DNA of 64,000 nt from Sycobia sp. Sy_11 (Eukaryota; Arthropoda; Insecta; Hymenoptera; Epichrysomallidae): contig JACCIC010000051.1 in assembly GCA_018907035.1 (NCBI GenBank), positions 3,057,001-3,121,000 on the forward strand. The letters run 5' to 3'. A program made the position numbers and the translations under genes. The notes under the pieces are model-generated. The model searched no databases. It saw only the letters and a list, made by a program, of their open reading frames with translations, and was not told the origin of the DNA. Positions 43,611-53,890 of this stretch are shown here, piece after piece (positions within the stretch are counted from its first letter, which is position 1; each line of letters starts with the position of its first letter).

Positions 43611-44296
43611 CAGAGATGCCAGGCCGGACAGCCAAGTCGAGTATACGCGTTAGAGTCTTTACCCCTCCACGCGCTGATTTGCTGAAACTCGCGCGATATT
43701 TTAAAGTTATATGATCTGTATGATCGTATAAAACAACAAGCAAGCTGCAAGACTATTTAAAAAATTATTGATACTATAATATATAACTGTGGCCACATGC
43801 ATATAAATATTTTAAACATGTCCACTACTAAAAACTCATTAATTAATATTATTCATTATTAAAATTATTATTAATTATGAATATTATGATTAATATTATT
43901 ATAAACTATTATAATAATTATTAAATATTATAGTTATTAATATAAATTTATTATAATTATATAATGTAATATATATTTAATGTATATTAAATTATATAAT
44001 TAATAATAATATTAATAATTAATAATAATATTGATAATTAATAATAATTTTAACAATGAATAATATTAATTAATGAGTTTTTAGTAGTGGACATGTTTAA
44101 AATATTTATATGCATGTGGCCACAGTTATATATTATAGTATCAATAATTTTTTAATAGTCTTGCAGCTTGCTTGTTTTATACGATCATACAGATCATAGA
44201 ACTTTAAAATATCGCACGAGTTTCAGCCAATCAGCGCGTGGAGGGGTAAAGACTCTAACGCGCATACTCGAGTTGGCTGCCCGGCCGTCACCTCTG
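43611..44296. mobile_element. hAT-like foldback element with about 285-bp inverted arms
   Basis: The two halves (about 43611-43900 and 44010-44296) are near-perfect reverse complements. Shared landmarks include GTGGCCACATGCATATAAAT, CTTGCAGCTTGCTTG-type sequence and GTAAAGACTCTAACGCG. The ends read CAGAGATGCC on the left and, reverse-complemented, CAGAGGTGAC on the right. The flanking 8-bp sequences GATGCGTG (43603-43610) and GGTGCGTG (44297-44304) differ by one base. CAG-starting ends and 8-bp duplications are hAT hallmarks. There is no transposase. The centre is a very AT-rich TAATTA-type loop. The similar reading frames in the two arms merely reflect the inverted repeat. Confidence 0.8.
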
Positions 44297-44356
44297 GGTG
44301 CGTGCAGACTCTGCTTAGTCTGTACAAGCAACGCTGGTGTGCGGCACTGCGGCCCC

Positions 44357-45066
44357 TGTGACGTAATACGACTACATTCGACGTGTCACGAAACCGTATT
44401 TTGTCATGTCCTTTTACACTCCTTTTATAACCGCGAAATATAATTATGTAATAAAAAAATAGCTTAAACGATCAAAAATAAGTATTTTATACCTATAGCA
44501 AATATGTATTTTATAATAGTTTATGAATACAAATAATATTGAATCACTTGATAGCGCAAAGGACACGGACATTAAAAATATACATTATTCATATAGAATC
44601 GATATGTATGGGCATTCCGTTCAAATAAATATTATATTTGAACTACATTTTATAATTGAGTTCGATGGCCAACAAATACACGCGCATAGCTGAAGCGAGA
44701 CAATGCACATTTATGACCGCCGAGGAATTCCCGCAATTAAGCGACGCTGCATGGGAGCAGCTGCAGCGTGCACAACCAGCAAGGGAGAAGGACCGTCGAT
44801 GCGCGGATTGGCGCTCGCTATACTTGGGGTGGGGAGTTGCGATGTGTGCGGGGGTGTGCATGGAGATGTTTTTGCGGATATAAACACTTCGCTTTCGGCA
44901 GCCGCGCAGTATTATACATATCTAATAAAGCTAACATTAAAATTAATATCGTTTCTTATTTCATTTCTATAATATAATAATTTTAATTAATATTCTAAAA
45001 TATTAAATTTCAAACGGCACATTTTTCGCGCGCTATAGCTTATTTTTACAGGATAGAGACATCACA
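44357..45066 (+). repeat. 5' LTR
   Basis: Starts TGTGACG and ends CATCACA. A TATA-like GATATAAAC lies at about 44876 and an AATAAAG polyadenylation signal at about 44922, the spacing expected of U3-R. The short frames on both strands recur exactly in the 3' LTR and are not genes. Confidence 0.96.
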
Positions 45067-45304: not shown

Positions 45305-46657
45305 ATATTTGAATTAGTGAATTACTAGTGAAGTGTGTTTTTTTTAAAAAAAAAAAAAAAGAAAAAAAAATAAAAAAAAGAAAAATCGATGTTGTGTTTA
45401 TTGTGTATGTGTTTATAGAGCTTTTGTGTATATTAATATTGTGTTTATTTTGTATGTGTATGTAGAGCTCTTGTGTAGTGTTAGTTTATTGTGTATAAAT
45501 ATGTGTGTGTAATTTAAGCGTTTATTGTGAATGCTATTGCCAACCCCCTTACTTGGGTTTTTGGCACGTTTTCCCCAAGTACAAGGGTGAATACCAGGAG
45601 GAAGTGATTACTATTACGTGCCAAGTATAGTAGAATAATCACAGGCAACAGCAAGAAAAAAAGTAAGTCCGTAAACCTTAATTTTGTAAATCAAGTGATT
45701 CTGTGCAAAAATTAAAGTCAAGTGTTAAAACAAAAGAAACTTAAAGAAAAATTTTATTATACGTATGTTGTGTGCGTGAGCATATGTATTTCTGTAAGCC
45801 TACCTGTGTATATACAGATTTATATTAATATTACAGCGTACATATAGGGTTGTACAATTATAATAAATGTAAGTGGTGTATGTTATAAATGTATGGGTAG
45901 AATTATTAATATATTTAATAAATAAATAAGATATATATATGGAAATCCATTTGTTTATACCTTTATAATTATAATCAACCATTTTTATAAATATATTACA
46001 CTTTTAATTATATCTTCTTCTATTATATTTTATTGTATATTCGCACGTAATTGATTCATTCGTATATCTTTCTATTGCTGCTTTTATTGCGTGTATGAAT
46101 TGTGATTGCTGAGTTCCTTTGCCTCTATGGGATGTTTCTTCTGTACGTTTACTTATAAAAACCGTCAAAAATTTTTATACATAATTCTACCTAAATAAGA
46201 AAATATAAATAAATAATTAAATAAAGTAGCCACTAAAACAAATATATATATATATATAATAAAACATAAATTAATATAGACAGACAAATTTTAAGCAGGT
46301 AATAAATAAATAATAAATAGATATAAAGTATAAATAAATACCATTATTACTATTACCTGCCATTACGTATTATATATAAATTAGTATTATTAAGGAATTA
46401 AAACTTAAAATTAAATAACCAAACAAGTAAAAATAATTAAAAATTGAACTAAATAATTAAATAATAAATACATAGAAATTATATATAACTTTATTCCACT
46501 TATAACCTTATTTCACTTATAACCTTATTTCATGTATAACTTTATTTCCTTATTAAACTAAATCATATAAATTATACGTACATTTTAAAATAAAACAAAA
46601 ATTATAGAAACACAATAACACAAATTTTATTTATTAAATAAATTAACACATAACAAA
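45067..46657 (+). other. Retrotransposon leader with primer-binding site
   Basis: Two bases after the LTR the sequence reads TGGTGGCAGCGG, which starts with the TGG expected of a tRNA-primed binding site; I cannot assign the tRNA. The leader then has an A-rich run, a tandem array of the unit GTGCTACA (45194-45235), a TA/TG microsatellite (about 45234-45305) and long AT-rich sequence up to gag. Confidence 0.7.
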
Positions 46658-47824
46658 ATGCCTCCAACGCGTAGAAATAAAATAATTAAAAATGCTACTA
46701 ATACCGTACGAAAAACAAAAAAAAATAATCCTACTAACAATTTAAATATGCCACATAACGATGGCATTAACGAAAACATTATCGCAAATCAAATACATGA
46801 AATTACAGAAATACCATCGAAACAAAATGAGGTTACTAATGTAAAACAGATAGAAAATGATAACTTTGTTGACTTACGTACGGCAAATTTAATTATCCCG
46901 GAATTCAAAGGTACAAACGATTGTATAGAAACCTTTGTGCGTGCTTGTGAAAGAGCAAACAGTGCGGTTGCTCCAAATTCGAGATTTTTTCTTCTAAATT
47001 TAATTCGAGCCAAGTGTAAAGGGGAGGTAAACACTTACCTTTTAAGTAAAAGCGACCATACAAATTTATCAGATTTTTTAGAAGATTTAAGGAAATCATT
47101 CGGGCCGCGAGAAAACTACAACCAACTAAATGCGGAACTAGCTTGTATTACACAGAAAGAAAAAGAATCGGTACGCGACTACGGTACCAGGGTCAGCATG
47201 CTTGTCATTAGACTTATCGCGTCTATAAAAAAAACGTACGCGGAAGACAAATCGCTCGGTGTTACAGCAGGTGCATACGATAATGCAATCAATTGTTTTA
47301 TTACGGGACTGTTAGACTATCGAATAGCAGACCGCGTAGAAAAGGAGAAGCCGACCTCGTTAGAAAACGCGATACATTTAGCCCTAGAGGCTGAGAAATT
47401 TATCAACTATAGAACCGGGATTCACAATAAAAATTGCGAGATCAAACCCTTAGAAAACACAGAAATCCGTGTCGCACATGTACGAGATATAGAACGTGAA
47501 CAAAAAAACAATAATCGAATAAATAAATTTAAAAAATTCAATGAACAAAATATACAAAAATCTGAAAACAGGACATGCTTTCATTGTGGTAAACGGGGAC
47601 ACATAAAATTAAATTGCAGATACCTAAATAAGACACAAAGTAATAGAGGACATCCTTACAAATTTGAAAATAGAAATAACCGTGTTACTAAACAAAGTAA
47701 TATTAAGTCACAAGGACAGCCAAATTTAAACGAGAACGAAGCTCGTCTAACCGGGGCGAAGTCGAGCTTCCAAAAACAAAAGCGTCCTGCAGCGTACGTA
47801 TTTACTACGGAACAAAAGGATTAA
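46658..47824 (+). CDS. gag: Retrotransposon Gag polyprotein, 388 aa
   Basis: An intact frame from ATG to TAA. The N-terminus is basic and Asn/Lys-rich. Residues 70-250 show the Ty3/gypsy capsid pattern (IPEFKGTNDCIETFVRAC, ESVRDYGTRVSMLV). A zinc knuckle of the form CX2CX4HX4C occupies Cys307, Cys310, His315 and Cys320. The C-terminal tail is basic. Capsid self-assembly and RNA packaging are the roles known for the family. The pol frame is in the -1 frame relative to gag and is open across the gag stop, so -1 frameshifting is plausible, but I saw no textbook slippery heptamer. Confidence 0.95.
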   Translation: MPPTRRNKIIKNATNTVRKTKKNNPTNNLNMPHNDGINENIIANQIHEITEIPSKQNEVTNVKQIENDNFVDLRTANLIIPEFKGTNDCIETFVRACERANSAVAPNSRFFLLNLIRAKCKGEVNTYLLSKSDHTNLSDFLEDLRKSFGPRENYNQLNAELACITQKEKESVRDYGTRVSMLVIRLIASIKKTYAEDKSLGVTAGAYDNAINCFITGLLDYRIADRVEKEKPTSLENAIHLALEAEKFINYRTGIHNKNCEIKPLENTEIRVAHVRDIEREQKNNNRINKFKKFNEQNIQKSENRTCFHCGKRGHIKLNCRYLNKTQSNRGHPYKFENRNNRVTKQSNIKSQGQPNLNENEARLTGAKSSFQKQKRPAAYVFTTEQKD

Positions 47825-47880
47825 ACAACGTAAATACACCCACCGTAAAATTAGAAGCTAGATTTAGAAATAATCTAGAA

Positions 47881-50800
47881 ATGTTCTTTTTGATAGACAC
47901 CGGTTGTAATCTAAACTTAATAAAAAACAAGTACGTTAGTGAATCTAAACACATTAACAGAAAAATAATTTATAATTTATTAGGAATAGGTAAGGGTACG
48001 GTTGGAACACTTGGGGAGATAACTTTGGAGCTTACTGAATATAATATAACATTTCAAATAGTACCGGACGACTTTCCATTAGAAGTCGATGGCATTTTGG
48101 GAATTGAATTTCTCAAGAACGAGCAGGTAGAAATAACCTTTAAAAAATACGGTATTGGGAAATTAAAAACTCAAACAGGTTTTCTAAAATTCGAAAAAAG
48201 TATAACCATTGATCTCCTTGGTAGAACTCGGAAATTAATCGAACTACCAGTTTTAAATGCTAGTGTTATAGAAGGTATTCTACCCCGCATAAATATAGGT
48301 TCTGACGTTTATTTAGGAGAAGCATTGGTAACACCAAAAAATGGTATTGTTCAGGTCTTCGCTGTAAACTCATCAACAGAAGACATTAGAGCCACATTCC
48401 CCATACCAAAATTGGAACCAATTCCAAATATATCAAATTTTAATAGTAACGATATATGTGAAACACAAACCGATAAAAAATTATTATCTAAACGTATAGC
48501 CACGCTTTTAAAGATCATTAAAGTAGACCATTTAAACGTAGAAGAAAAAGATAAGATTATCCAATTAATTTCTAAATACCCTTTTCAATTTTATATACCG
48601 GGAGACAAATTACAGGCAACAAATATAGCTTCTCATAGAATTGAATTAACTGATTATACACCAAATAACAAAAGACAGTTTAGGCATCCGCAAATTCATA
48701 AAACCGAACTAGAAAAACAAACAAAAAAAATGTTAGAAGAAAACATAATACAACCATCGATCTCACCTTGGAATCCACGCTGTTTTCTAGTGCCAAAAAA
48801 AGCAGATGATTCTGGAAAGAGTAGTTGGCGTTTAGTTATTGATTATCGAGCACTTAACGAAAAAATTGTAAATGTTTCCTATCCTCTTCCTAATATAACG
48901 GAAATTCTGGATCAGTTAGGTGGTGCCAAATACTTTTCTACTTTAGATTTAGCCTCAGGTTTTCATCAGATTCCTTTAGAGTCTGCGTCAAAACAATTGA
49001 CAGCATTTTCGACACCTTTTGGCCACTGGGAGTTCAATCGTACTCCAATGGGTCTTCGCACTAGCCCTGCAATTTTTCAAAGAATGATAAATAAAATTTG
49101 TTCTGGATTATTAAATACAGAAATGTTAATATTCATGGATGATGCAATTATTTTTTCTGATAGCTTAAAGAAACATATCCAAAATCTTGAAAAATTTTTG
49201 AAAATATTAAAAAATGCAAATCTAACCTTAAAACCAGAGAAGTAGTTCATTTTTATGTAAAGACATAGTTTATTTAGGGCACAGGGTATCAGCTAATGGA
49301 GTGGAACCAGATCCAAAAAAGGTCGATGCTGTCAAGTGTTTTCCCATTCCTAAAAACAAGAAAAATGTTAAACAGTTTCTAGGCCTCGTAGGTTATTATA
49401 GGAAGTTTATAAAAAATCTTGCTAAAATAGGTAGACCCTTATATTTATTATTAAGAGAAAACACATGCTTCAAATGGGATGAAAGCACACAGGATGCATT
49501 CGAAAGATTAAAAAATATTTTAATTAATCCACCTTTATTACAATATCCGGATTTTAGTAAAGAATTTGTAGTTACAACCGATGCATCTGACTATGCATTA
49601 GGGGCAGTACTGAGTCAGGGCGAAATAGGAGACGATCTTCCCATAGCATACGCGTCAAGATTACTTGGACAGGCAGAAAAAAACTACTCTACAACGGAAA
49701 AGGAGCTGTTAGCCATGATTTTTGGGGTCGAACAATTTAGGCCATATATTTATGGCAGAATGTTCACTCTGGTCACAGATCATCGACCATTAATCTGGCT
49801 TAAGAACCTTAAAAATCCTTCTTCAAAACTAGCCCGTTGGCAATTACGCCTCAGAGAGTATACATTCAAGGTAGTTTATAAGGCTGGTCGAGTTAACTCT
49901 AATGCTGACGCTTTATCTCGAAACCCAGTTGAATATGAATCAAATGTATGTATTGCCCTGACGGATCTGCAAAAGATGGAAGTCTGCGCTGACTTCTCAT
50001 CGGTTTCTGGTTCAGCAGGAGATACAGAATGGATTCTGAATGAAAATATTGCAAAAATATTTTTATCGTATAACAACGAGCAAATAATAACTGAGAACAC
50101 TACGACTAACGACGAAGACAGAAACGATACGCAAGTGTTGAATAACACAGCGGATTCGTGCAGACAAGAGAAAACTGTAGAAATCGGTACAAAAAAAGGC
50201 ATATCAGAGAATATACAACGTGTAGTTGTACAGCCAGATGATGACAGTTCAAAGCATAATAGAACCCGAACGGTATGCAATGCTCGAGAGTCTGTGCTGG
50301 AAGTGGAACAAACAGATGTTGACAGCGCTGAACAGTTTTCTTTGAGAAACATATGTGAAGCCCGAGAGTCTGTTTGTGAAAAGGATAAAATGCCAGGAAC
50401 TACAGGTTATGACGATAACCATGTAAATAGTAGTATGGAAAAAAGAAACCGAACAGTTCTCTATGTGACAGAAACTGCAATAACACATACAAATGACTTT
50501 CTGCTTATGAAAAGCGACCATACTGTTCATTTCATTTCAGCGGATTGTAATTTGTATACAGCAACCAGCAAAGAGTTCCTTGATAATGGTCTTTTAAACT
50601 CAGAAAATTTACTCATTCTAAACCCCTCTGTTGGACAGGTGATCACATTCCAGACAGATAATTCGTATATATTCAACCTTGTTGTTAAACCAAAAATACG
50701 ATCAAGCTGCAGAAATAGAAAACCTCAGAATTTGTTTCCAAGGCCTCAAAACTTCCATTGTTGAAACTAATATAAGAACAGTTAGAATTTCAAAAGTAGA

Positions 50801-51959
50801 TAATGGCATAGATAATATACCGTGGGAAATAGTAGAAAATACATTATTAGAGATCTTTCAAGATACAAAAATTACATTTGTAATTTGTGCAGGCGATGTT
50901 TGCTTTCCAGATGAACTGGAAAGGGAGAATATAATTAAAGAATATCATGATTCTGCTGTTGGTGGCCATTATGGCATAACAAAAACATATAAATCTATCC
51001 GAAACCATTTTTACTGGCACAACATGAAAAATGATATACGCCATTATATTCTCCCTTGCAAGAGCTGTCAGGAGGGTAAATTAACTAGAATAAAAACCAA
51101 ATTACCTATGCAAATCACTGATACACCAAAAGCAGCACTCGATAAGGTTCAGATGGACATTGTAGGACCTCTTCCTATCACTTCTTCTGGCAATAAATAT
51201 CTGCTTACCTTACAGTGTTGTCTAACAAAATATGCAGATGCCATTCCTCTCAAAAATATCGACTCTATATCAGTAGCTTCTGCTTTAGCTGAAGAATTCA
51301 TTTCTCGTCATGGTTGTCCCAAAGTAATTCAAACGGACCAGGGTAGTAACTTCTGCAGCAAAATTATGAACACCATCTGTAACATATTTAAAATCAAACG
51401 TATAAAATTATCGGCATTTCATCCTCAATCATTAGGTGCACTTGAGAGATCACATCATACATTCATAGAATATCTTCGACACTATTGTACAAATAATAAC
51501 TGGGATCAATGGATTAGATTCGGTATGTTCTCCTTTAATAATCACGTTCATGAAGCCCATGGTTATACTCCTCATGAGGCCTTTTTTGGTAGAAAAGCTC
51601 GAATGCCATCCGAATTTGCAGACCAAAACGTGCCATTGACTTTTATTGAAATCGTAAATAATCTTTTTAATAAGCTAAGTTATACACAGGCAAAGGTAGC
51701 TGAAAATGTAAATAAAGCTAAACATCTATACAAAAAATATTATGACAAGGCACTAAATATAAGAGAATTTCAAGTAGGTGATTATGTGTATTTGATAAAA
51801 GAACCACGTACCTCTAAGTTTGACAAACATTATACAGGTTCTTATGAAATTATTGAAATCATCGGTGATACGAATGTTAAAATAAAAGTTAAAAATAGTT
51901 TTAAAGTGGTACATAAAAATAAATTAAAACGTATGAACTTTCGATTAGATCACGAATAA
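47881..51959 (+). pseudogene. pol: Retrotransposon pol (PR-RT-RH-macro-like-IN), broken by two frame changes
   Basis: Three successive frames hold the domains. Frame one (to a TAG at about 49243) contains the aspartic protease (FLIDTGC) and reverse transcriptase with LDLASGFHQIPL and the FMDD active site. A one-base frame change near 49240 moves the reading to frame two (49301-50764): the RT thumb, then RNase H (TTDASDYALGAVLSQGE, EKELLAMIFG, DHRPLIWL, ADALSRNP), then a linker. A second one-base change near 50690 moves it to frame three (to 51959): integrase with an HHCC zinc finger (HDSAVGGHYG.., ..LPCKSCQ) and DDE residues in QMDIVGPLP, QTDQGSNF and GALERSHHTF. The open frame extends a little upstream of the listed ATG. 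Both breaks could be assembly errors, given the otherwise intact element. Confidence 0.94.
50494..50897 (+). other. Macrodomain-like segment in pol, OARD1/TARG1 type
   Basis: Between RNase H and integrase lies about 130 residues unlike ordinary Ty3/gypsy linkers. In order it shows a HTVHFISADCNL motif (compare the AHCISEDC region of human OARD1), a VGQV strand, YIFNLVVKP, a helix with IENLRICFQGL, then VRISKVDNGIDNIPWE and a final hydrophobic strand. Aligned by eye, the Lys in VVKP matches OARD1 Lys84 and the Asp in NGIDN matches Asp125, the catalytic pair. The GAGIA substrate loop is not conserved (YTATS). The second pol frame break falls inside the segment, at about 50690. OARD1 removes ADP-ribose from glutamate in modified proteins; whether this copy acts so is unknown. 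Confidence 0.72.
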
Positions 51960-52183: not shown

Positions 52184-52893
52184 TGTGACGTAATACGACT
52201 ACATTCGACGTGTCACGAAACCGTATTTTGTCATGTCCTTTTACACTCCTTTTATAACCGCGAAATATAATTATGTAATAAAAAAATAGCTTAAACGATC
52301 AAAAATAAGTATTTTATACCTATAGCAAATATGTATTTTATAATAGTTTATGAATACAAATAATATTGAATCACTTGATAGCGCAAAGGACACGGACATT
52401 AAAAATATACATTATTCATATAGAATCGATATGTATGGGCATTCCGTTCAAATAAATATTATATTTGAACTACATTTTATAATTGAGTTCGATGGCCAAC
52501 AAATACACGCGCATAGCTGAAGCGAGACAATGCACATTTATGACCGCCGAGGAATTCCCGCAATTAAGCGACGCTGCATGGGAGCAGCTGCAGCGTGCAC
52601 AACCAGCAAGGGAGAAGGACCGTCGATGCGCGGATTGGCGCTCGCTATACTTGGGGTGGGGAGTTGCGATGTGTGCGGGGGTGTGCATGGAGATGTTTTT
52701 GCGGATATAAACACTTCGCTTTCGGCAGCCGCGCAGTATTATACATATCTAATAAAGCTAACATTAAAATTAATATCGTTTCTTATTTCATTTCTATAAT
52801 ATAATAATTTTAATTAATATTCTAAAATATTAAATTTCAAACGGCACATTTTTCGCGCGCTATAGCTTATTTTTACAGGATAGAGACATCACA
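52184..52893 (+). repeat. 3' LTR
   Basis: A 710-bp copy of the 5' LTR, with the same ends and the same internal frames at a constant offset of 7827 bp. I saw no difference between them. Confidence 0.96.
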
Positions 52894-52898
52894 GCCCC

Positions 52899-53449: not shown

Positions 53450-53890
53450 AATATCACATGATTGTCTGAAAGAATTAAAAGAAATTTTCGGAAATATAAC
53501 ATTAAAATTTTCTTGAAAAATAGCAATAATTTGAATAAATTGTTTAATAATTGCAAAGATAATGATGATTTATACTTAAATTCAGGAATTGTTTACAAGA
53601 TTAATTGCATAGATTGTGATAAATACTATATTGGACAAACAGGTAGATATTTAAAAAAGAAAATTTATGAACATAAATATAGTTTACGTAGCTCACATAT
53701 TACTTCCGGTTTAAAAGAGCATTGTTTAAAGTTTTTACATTCTTTTGATTTTGTGAATGTGGATATTTTGGAACATGGTATTAATAATAAGTATAAAAGG
53801 GAGAGTCTTGAAAGTATTCACATTTCCAGGAATCGAAATAATGTGAATTTAATATTAATATTATTTTATTTTAATATTATTTTATTTTAA
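53450..53890 (+). pseudogene. Penelope-like element fragment, GIY-YIG endonuclease domain
   Basis: The frame encodes the stretch after the reverse transcriptase of Penelope-like elements: SERIKRNFRKYNIKIFLKN, then GIVYKINCIDCDKYYIGQTG with the GIY and YIG halves of the nuclease motif, then KKKIYEHKYSLRS, and later RESLESIHISRNRNNVN. A CX2C pair (CIDC) between GIY and YIG is typical of these elements. The reverse transcriptase is missing and stops lie just upstream, so it is a truncated relic. The 3' end degenerates into an AT-rich TTTTATTTTAATA-type repeat at about 53860-53930. Confidence 0.88.

Follow-up and report, generated by a model that had tools for sequence, protein, structure and literature searches.

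We analyzed a window of 64,000 nucleotides from the hymenopteran Sycobia sp. Sy_11 (assembly GCA_018907035.1, contig JACCIC010000051.1, positions 3,057,001 to 3,121,000 of the forward strand); all coordinates below are those of the window. It contains a Ty3/gypsy long terminal repeat (LTR) retrotransposon, recognized by its LTRs, target-site duplication, gag gene and the order protease, reverse transcriptase, RNase H and integrase, whose pol region carries a macrodomain of the TARG1 (OARD1) type (Table 1). The macrodomain segment, of about 136 residues, lies between the RNase H linker and the integrase zinc finger. The pol frame of this copy is broken at two places, near 49.24 kb and inside the macrodomain, so that its own macrodomain is frame-broken rather than whole. 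An initial annotation, made from the letters of the sequence, had placed a macrodomain at 50494-50897, close to the profile boundaries found here, and had described a series of motifs in one order. The order was as described, but the motifs occupy two reading frames: HFISADC, VGQV and YIFNLVVK are in the open reading frame (ORF) 49232-50764, and ENLRICF and KVDNGIDNIPWE in ORF 50643-51959.

The agreement with OARD1/TARG1 in motif order and spacing, also claimed initially, was borne out by two kinds of search. When the two halves were compared separately with the PDB sequences, human OARD1/TARG1 came first for both and over colinear parts, with E=0.2 for the N-terminal half, which is weak and insufficient alone, and E=0.0036 for the C-terminal half. 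A profile made from seven canonical relatives (see below), none of them from the window's clade, was run against the 1004 open segments of at least 30 residues in the window, and the two halves alone were recovered at E<0.1 (1.9e-9 and 0.0036). Pfam searches gave Macro at 0.016 for the C-terminal half, below the cut-off, and no match for the N-terminal half. As a protein query the C-terminal half alone returned 70 candidates, none with E<=0.01; the longer integrase query did find relatives.

Table 1. Features of the Ty3/gypsy element in the window and the evidence for each.
Feature	Position	Strand	Evidence
Target-site duplication GCCCC, left copy	44352..44356	.	Read at LTR edges
5' LTR, 710 bp, TGTGA...TCACA	44357..45066	+	Exact match to 52184-52893
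gag ORF with CCHC zinc knuckle	46619..47824	+	Pfam Retrotrans_gag 4.9e-5, 23.9 bits (sub-threshold, cut-off 24.1); zf-CCHC 0.011 (also below cut-off)
pol part, protease and reverse transcriptase	47707..49245	+	Pfam RVT_1 4.1e-34; RVP 0.014 (below cut-off)
RNase H	49550..49861	+	Pfam RT_RNaseH 4.4e-37, residues 107-210 of ORF 49232-50764
Linker from RNase H to macrodomain, 188 codons	49928..50491	+	End of ADALSRNP to start of domain profile
Macrodomain, N-terminal half	50492..50704	+	Frame of ORF 49232-50764; diverged-relatives profile 1.8e-20, positions 2-72; OARD1 top PDB match, E=0.2
Macrodomain, C-terminal half	50676..50900	+	Frame of ORF 50643-51959; diverged-relatives profile 5.2e-16, positions 63-137; canonical-only profile 1.9e-9; OARD1 E=0.0036
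Lys codon, equivalent of TARG1 Lys84	50687..50689	+	Alignments; codon checked
Asp codon, equivalent of TARG1 Asp125	50811..50813	+	Alignments; codon checked
Integrase zinc-binding domain (H2C2)	50913..51080	+	Pfam Integrase_H2C2 8.2e-20
Integrase catalytic core	51135..51398	+	Pfam rve 1.7e-10
3' LTR	52184..52893	+	Match to 5' LTR
Target-site duplication GCCCC, right copy	52894..52898	.	Read at LTR edges

Profile and structural comparisons of relatives, a kind of check proposed with the initial annotation, placed OARD1 as the best match in the former and first in the latter. That the segment is a macrodomain is near certain. The profile of diverged relatives matched OARD1 in the PDB at 2.4e-20 and a DarG next at 0.0045, and the canonical profile gave 4e-38 for OARD1 and 8.7e-6 for a DarG; TARG1/OARD1 was the best PDB match for all three profiles. 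Identity to it is 35-43% in seven canonical element domains and 20-30% in nine diverged ones. Among Foldseek's best 1000 chains, TARG1 was also first by Z for both structural models examined, scoring 20.3 against about 12.5 for alphavirus-type viral macrodomains with the P0021 model, and 17.2 against 15.1 with the model from the eroded subclade described below. The domains thus have the macrodomain fold and, among macrodomains, are most closely related to TARG1, and an origin from an alphavirus-type viral macrodomain was rejected because both models score nearer TARG1. Chance resemblance, or some other fold, might be suspected from the weakness of single sequences, such as the N-terminal half at the value given above, and from the failure of Pfam Macro to match any of nine diverged domains. 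However, profiles, profile-profile comparison and structure all concur, and the best of 2000 shuffles reached 11.2 bits compared with 28.5-56.5 for the nine real domains; we consider this explanation refuted, with a negligible probability left to it.

Searches with the integrase ORF yielded 108 database proteins and a canonical relative added four more, for a total of 112. The domain profile matched 41 of them at E<1e-3, namely P0112 and 40 integrase-bearing proteins, 16 of which had been used in building the profile and match by construction. The survey of related Ty3/gypsy elements, another of the checks first proposed, found the same insertion in elements of several insects: a canonical form, in aphid and other elements, whose named sources are Uroleucon and Schizaphis, and a diverged form with Bombus, Lasius and Cataglyphis as named sources. 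In twelve proteins classed as domain-less, RNase H and the zinc finger are separated by 15-22 residues in eleven and by 68 in one, so the macrodomain is an addition to pol. Pieces of it were already visible in databases, since P0085 and P0110, both among the 112 proteins, carry a Macro label in the precomputed Pfam annotation.

The spacing between the domain and the first His of the zinc finger was obtained for 37 of the 41 rows (four gave none): 28 rows have 14 residues and seven have 12, P0040 has 17, and the value of 5 in P0085 was judged an artefact of motif matching. On the RNase H side, four canonical rows have a spacing of 32-36 residues, and three diverged rows have spacings of 108, 111 and 224. 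From the near-fixed spacing of 12 or 14 residues we infer that the macrodomain travels with the integrase, of which it is probably the N-terminal domain.

The TARG1 dyad consists of Lys84 and residue 125, which is printed as Glu125 in PMC7050489; by our own count residue 125 of the OARD1 sequence is Asp. Both residues had been correctly aligned with the Lys and Asp of the window from the start, and both are present in the window copy and in all 13 copies of its family with the domain in one frame. Canonical rows have Lys and Asp together in eight of nine cases and the GxG of loop 2 in six of nine. In the diverged clade, counted over 27 database rows placed with the window by the integrase tree, Lys is found in 22/27, Asp in 14/26 and both in 11/27; the Asp column, gap-prone in some rows, otherwise holds Asn (six), Glu (three) and one each of His, Gly and Ser. 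Wider counts, which take in all non-canonical pol rows with fragments and unclear rows but leave out P0112, are 22/27 for Lys and 15/29 for Asp, a better retention of Lys at p=0.025 in a test that ignores relatedness.

The glycine-rich loop had been described as changed, and it is. The glycine of the loop-1 GIA motif, which six of seven canonical rows in the alignment have in the form GIA, GIS or GLA, is absent by eye in the window and at the corresponding column in nine diverged rows, three of which have a Gly two columns on. For this reason the domain of the window's clade is classed as a TARG1 homologue and not as an established TARG1-type hydrolase. In the subclade that includes ant and bumblebee elements the fold is kept and loop 2 is without GxG. 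Six of its eight rows have the Lys and six have the Asp, and loop 1 is an invariant G-x-P-x-D-x-G (8/8), a pattern more suggestive of a new function than of decay. The 13 one-frame copies of the window's family include one without the loop 2 glycine and one without a nearby Trp.

In the genome from which the window comes, 42 places match the C-terminal half (150 scored of 156 candidates). Of 18 copies of the window's family that were retrieved, its own included, the domain is in one frame in 13; the exceptions are L005, L006 (the window), L015, L019 and L020. The break of the window is shared with L005 and not with the family at large. These two copies lie on different contigs, are 99.94% identical over 3271 columns and have the same macrodomain break, with the integrase also out of frame; copies of this kind may owe their spread to mobilisation in trans or to duplication. 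The macrodomain is under purifying selection. Comparisons of the divergent copy L021 with L007, L008 and L022 gave ratios of nonsynonymous to synonymous substitution (dN/dS) of 0.29, 0.29 and 0.48 for the macrodomain and of 0.13, 0.13 and 0.11 for the linker; for the integrase the two usable pairs gave 0.48 and 0.30, the pair L021-L022 being left out because of an indel. Synonymous change is in excess in the L021-L008 macrodomain (p=0.002). The same genome holds a second macrodomain-bearing family (L023-L032), with 28-30% identity in the C-terminal half; none of the ten copies fetched has an internal stop in the match, and the pooled ratio of nonsynonymous to synonymous polymorphism (pN/pS) is 0.17 for the five with the whole domain matched, counted over pairs that share ancestry, with those more than 30% different skipped.

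Other features of the element and its surroundings are as follows. The matching run between the LTRs is 711 bases, that is the 710 bp LTR and one chance base, and the LTR pair is identical (710/710). According to the ORF list, gag and pol overlap, pol starting at 47707 in the -1 frame relative to gag. No env ORF was found after pol among + strand ORFs of at least 60 residues between 51959 and the 3' LTR, and an errantivirus-like element with env was rejected on that ground. Directly 5' of the 5' LTR, at 43622-44286, there are long inverted repeats with arms of 138 nt (98%) and 115 nt (95%). Beyond the 3' LTR, ORF 53462-53890 (+, 142 residues, with YYIGQTGR) resembles by eye the GIY-YIG endonuclease of a Penelope-like element.

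Some of the database relatives have unusual architectures. P0112, a protein of 649 residues from an ENA assembly, has a TARG1-like macrodomain at residues 397-523 (OARD1 4e-16), and neither integrase nor any other Pfam domain above cut-off; its upstream H-x-T stretch looks to us like that of a 2H phosphoesterase. The predicted proteins P0085 and P0094 (Uroleucon formosanum) combine the macrodomain and the integrase zinc finger with an envelope domain of the baculovirus F type (PF12259 in the precomputed annotation), which suggests either the presence of env in some canonical elements or the fusion of gene models. When viral contigs were searched, the window protein gave no match, and the canonical alignment found four IMG/VR contigs (L001-L004) whose domains share 26-39% identity with the macrodomain of the canonical retroelements. 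Matches of very similar predicted fold in BFVD (TM up to 0.89) came from thrips virga-like and negev-like viruses and Kadipiro virus. Arthropod-associated viruses are possible partners for the exchange of this domain, to judge from these predicted structures.

The history of the domain was examined on an integrase tree of 55 rows, composed of 54 of the 112 database proteins and the window, P0085 being omitted as too short. The canonical rows form one clade (99/96) and the diverged rows another (95/97). Two separate captures of TARG1 at the same pol site, one for each clade, would agree with the lack of a supported branch joining them on this tree and with the domain tree, where the canonical rows, at weak support (84/70), group with human OARD1, the one cellular sequence used, and not with the diverged rows. 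However, the insertion site is identical and the spacing nearly so, and presence versus absence of the domain takes a single change on the best integrase tree, in a count that omits seven unclear rows (P0038, P0061, P0069, P0044, P0074, P0072 and P0040). We give two captures a rather low probability.

Homology, fold, place, near-fixed zinc-finger spacing and purifying selection are established by computation. We think it reasonably probable that a TARG1 macrodomain of the ALC1-like class is built into pol and forms the N-terminal part of the integrase, acting as an eraser of ADP-ribose in the canonical form and having a binding or structural role in the window's clade. The initial proposal that the element captured or inherited a cellular de-ADP-ribosylating domain is supported; the eraser function of the canonical form we infer. 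In vitro, TARG1 strips ADP-ribose off acidic residues and off the 5' or 3' terminal phosphates of double-stranded DNA (PMC8053099); it also acts on ADP-ribosylated thymidine (PMC8501950). The canonical domain could ride with the integrase on the complementary DNA (cDNA) of the element, where its targets would be the ends of the DNA, the integrase itself or proteins of the nearby target chromatin. In the window's clade a former eraser would later have become a binding or structural module, and hydrolysis is probably weak or absent because loop 1 is changed and Asp is often replaced. Several points weigh against this reading. That the protease leaves the domain attached to the integrase is deduced from the spacing; enzymatic function in the window's clade is doubtful given the changed loop 1, the replacement of Asp in 12/26 and the presence of both residues in only 11/27; the linker is more constrained than the macrodomain (0.11-0.13), which weakens the claim of a constraint special to the domain; and the dN/dS values depend on the single divergent copy L021.

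It may also be that the domain now has no ADP-ribose function in any element and is a scaffold or nucleic-acid-binding extension ahead of the integrase, placed much like the N-terminal extension domains that certain retroviral integrases have. The near-fixed spacing to the zinc finger, the variation of catalytic residues within the window's clade, and the subclade with ant and bumblebee elements, with its fold kept without the loop 2 GxG and its own invariant loop 1, would all suit such a role. Yet a mere scaffold would not need the Lys, Asp and GxG that the canonical clade retains, and even the eroded subclade still shows Lys and Asp in most rows, so we give this explanation a rather low probability. 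We consider less likely still that the domain acts as a general counter-defence against ADP-ribosylation by the host, like those of alphaviruses and coronaviruses, or against silencing based on ADP-ribosylation, its attachment to the integrase being incidental. Viral macrodomains do oppose host ADP-ribosylation (PMC10221186, PMC7729036), and activity has been lost repeatedly in alphaviruses, including insect-specific ones, as well as in PARP14 (PMC10221186), which is a precedent for the weak or absent hydrolysis expected in the window's clade. Since SIRT6 mono-ADP-ribosylates KAP1 and so contributes to the silencing of L1 in mammals (PMC4695847), the lifting of such silencing is, by analogy, a possible further role of the macrodomain. 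Returning to the eraser of the canonical form, we tentatively propose, although we think it improbable in full, that the aphid-type domain strips ADP-ribose from the element's own cDNA ends or integration complex, so that host ADP-ribosyltransferases could not block integration, and that those domains of the window's clade that keep Lys but have lost Asp may bind ADP-ribose covalently or tightly, as readers that direct integration towards PARylated DNA breaks.

An ADP-ribose eraser fused to a DNA integrase would be the first known to us. Outside RNA viruses and phages it is, to our knowledge, largely an open question whether mobile elements are drawn into the arms race over ADP-ribosylation. 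An eraser of the TARG1 type adjoining the integrase, retained across elements that have diverged widely and seen at several stages of its erosion, offers a direct handle on that question. For annotators, an unnamed pol stretch in many insect elements corresponds to a known fold that Pfam misses in its diverged form. Among the literature matches listed by a full-text search that covers few subscription journals, mostly as titles and the beginnings of abstracts, there was no account of a macrodomain in LTR-retrotransposon pol, and two of the papers, PMC7217437 and PMC5434184, turned out to have no bearing on it; in a term search of the available text, neither a survey of viral NAD and ADP-ribose systems (PMC9503650) nor a review of viral macrodomains (PMC7729036) mentions transposons or integrase.

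The canonical element form shares its Lys/Asp dyad with TARG1/OARD1/C6orf130, the animal ALC1-like hydrolase, but the element domain is inside pol before the integrase, and the window's clade has an altered loop 1 and often another residue in place of the Asp. The DarG macrodomain, with 15-17% identity to the P0021 model in the structural comparisons, is a bacterial operon antitoxin found outside retroelements. Accessory domains also occur in other LTR-element polyproteins: the chromodomain, which binds histone marks, is at the C-terminal end of the integrase, whereas the macrodomain is on the N-terminal side. Chromodomain-bearing LTR elements are named in PMC6338049. Some fish endogenous retroviruses likewise bring a macrodomain onto an LTR retroelement (Basta et al. 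2009, via PMC4977317); however, these epsilon-like elements of ray-finned fish carry it, according to the description there, as additional ORFs and not as a pol domain before the integrase. The acquisition of a host modification enzyme by a retrotransposon has a counterpart in the dinoflagellate and charophyte elements that took up cytosine methyltransferases (PMC5890265), although these are writers of DNA methylation in different hosts, whereas the domain described here is related to an eraser of ADP-ribose.
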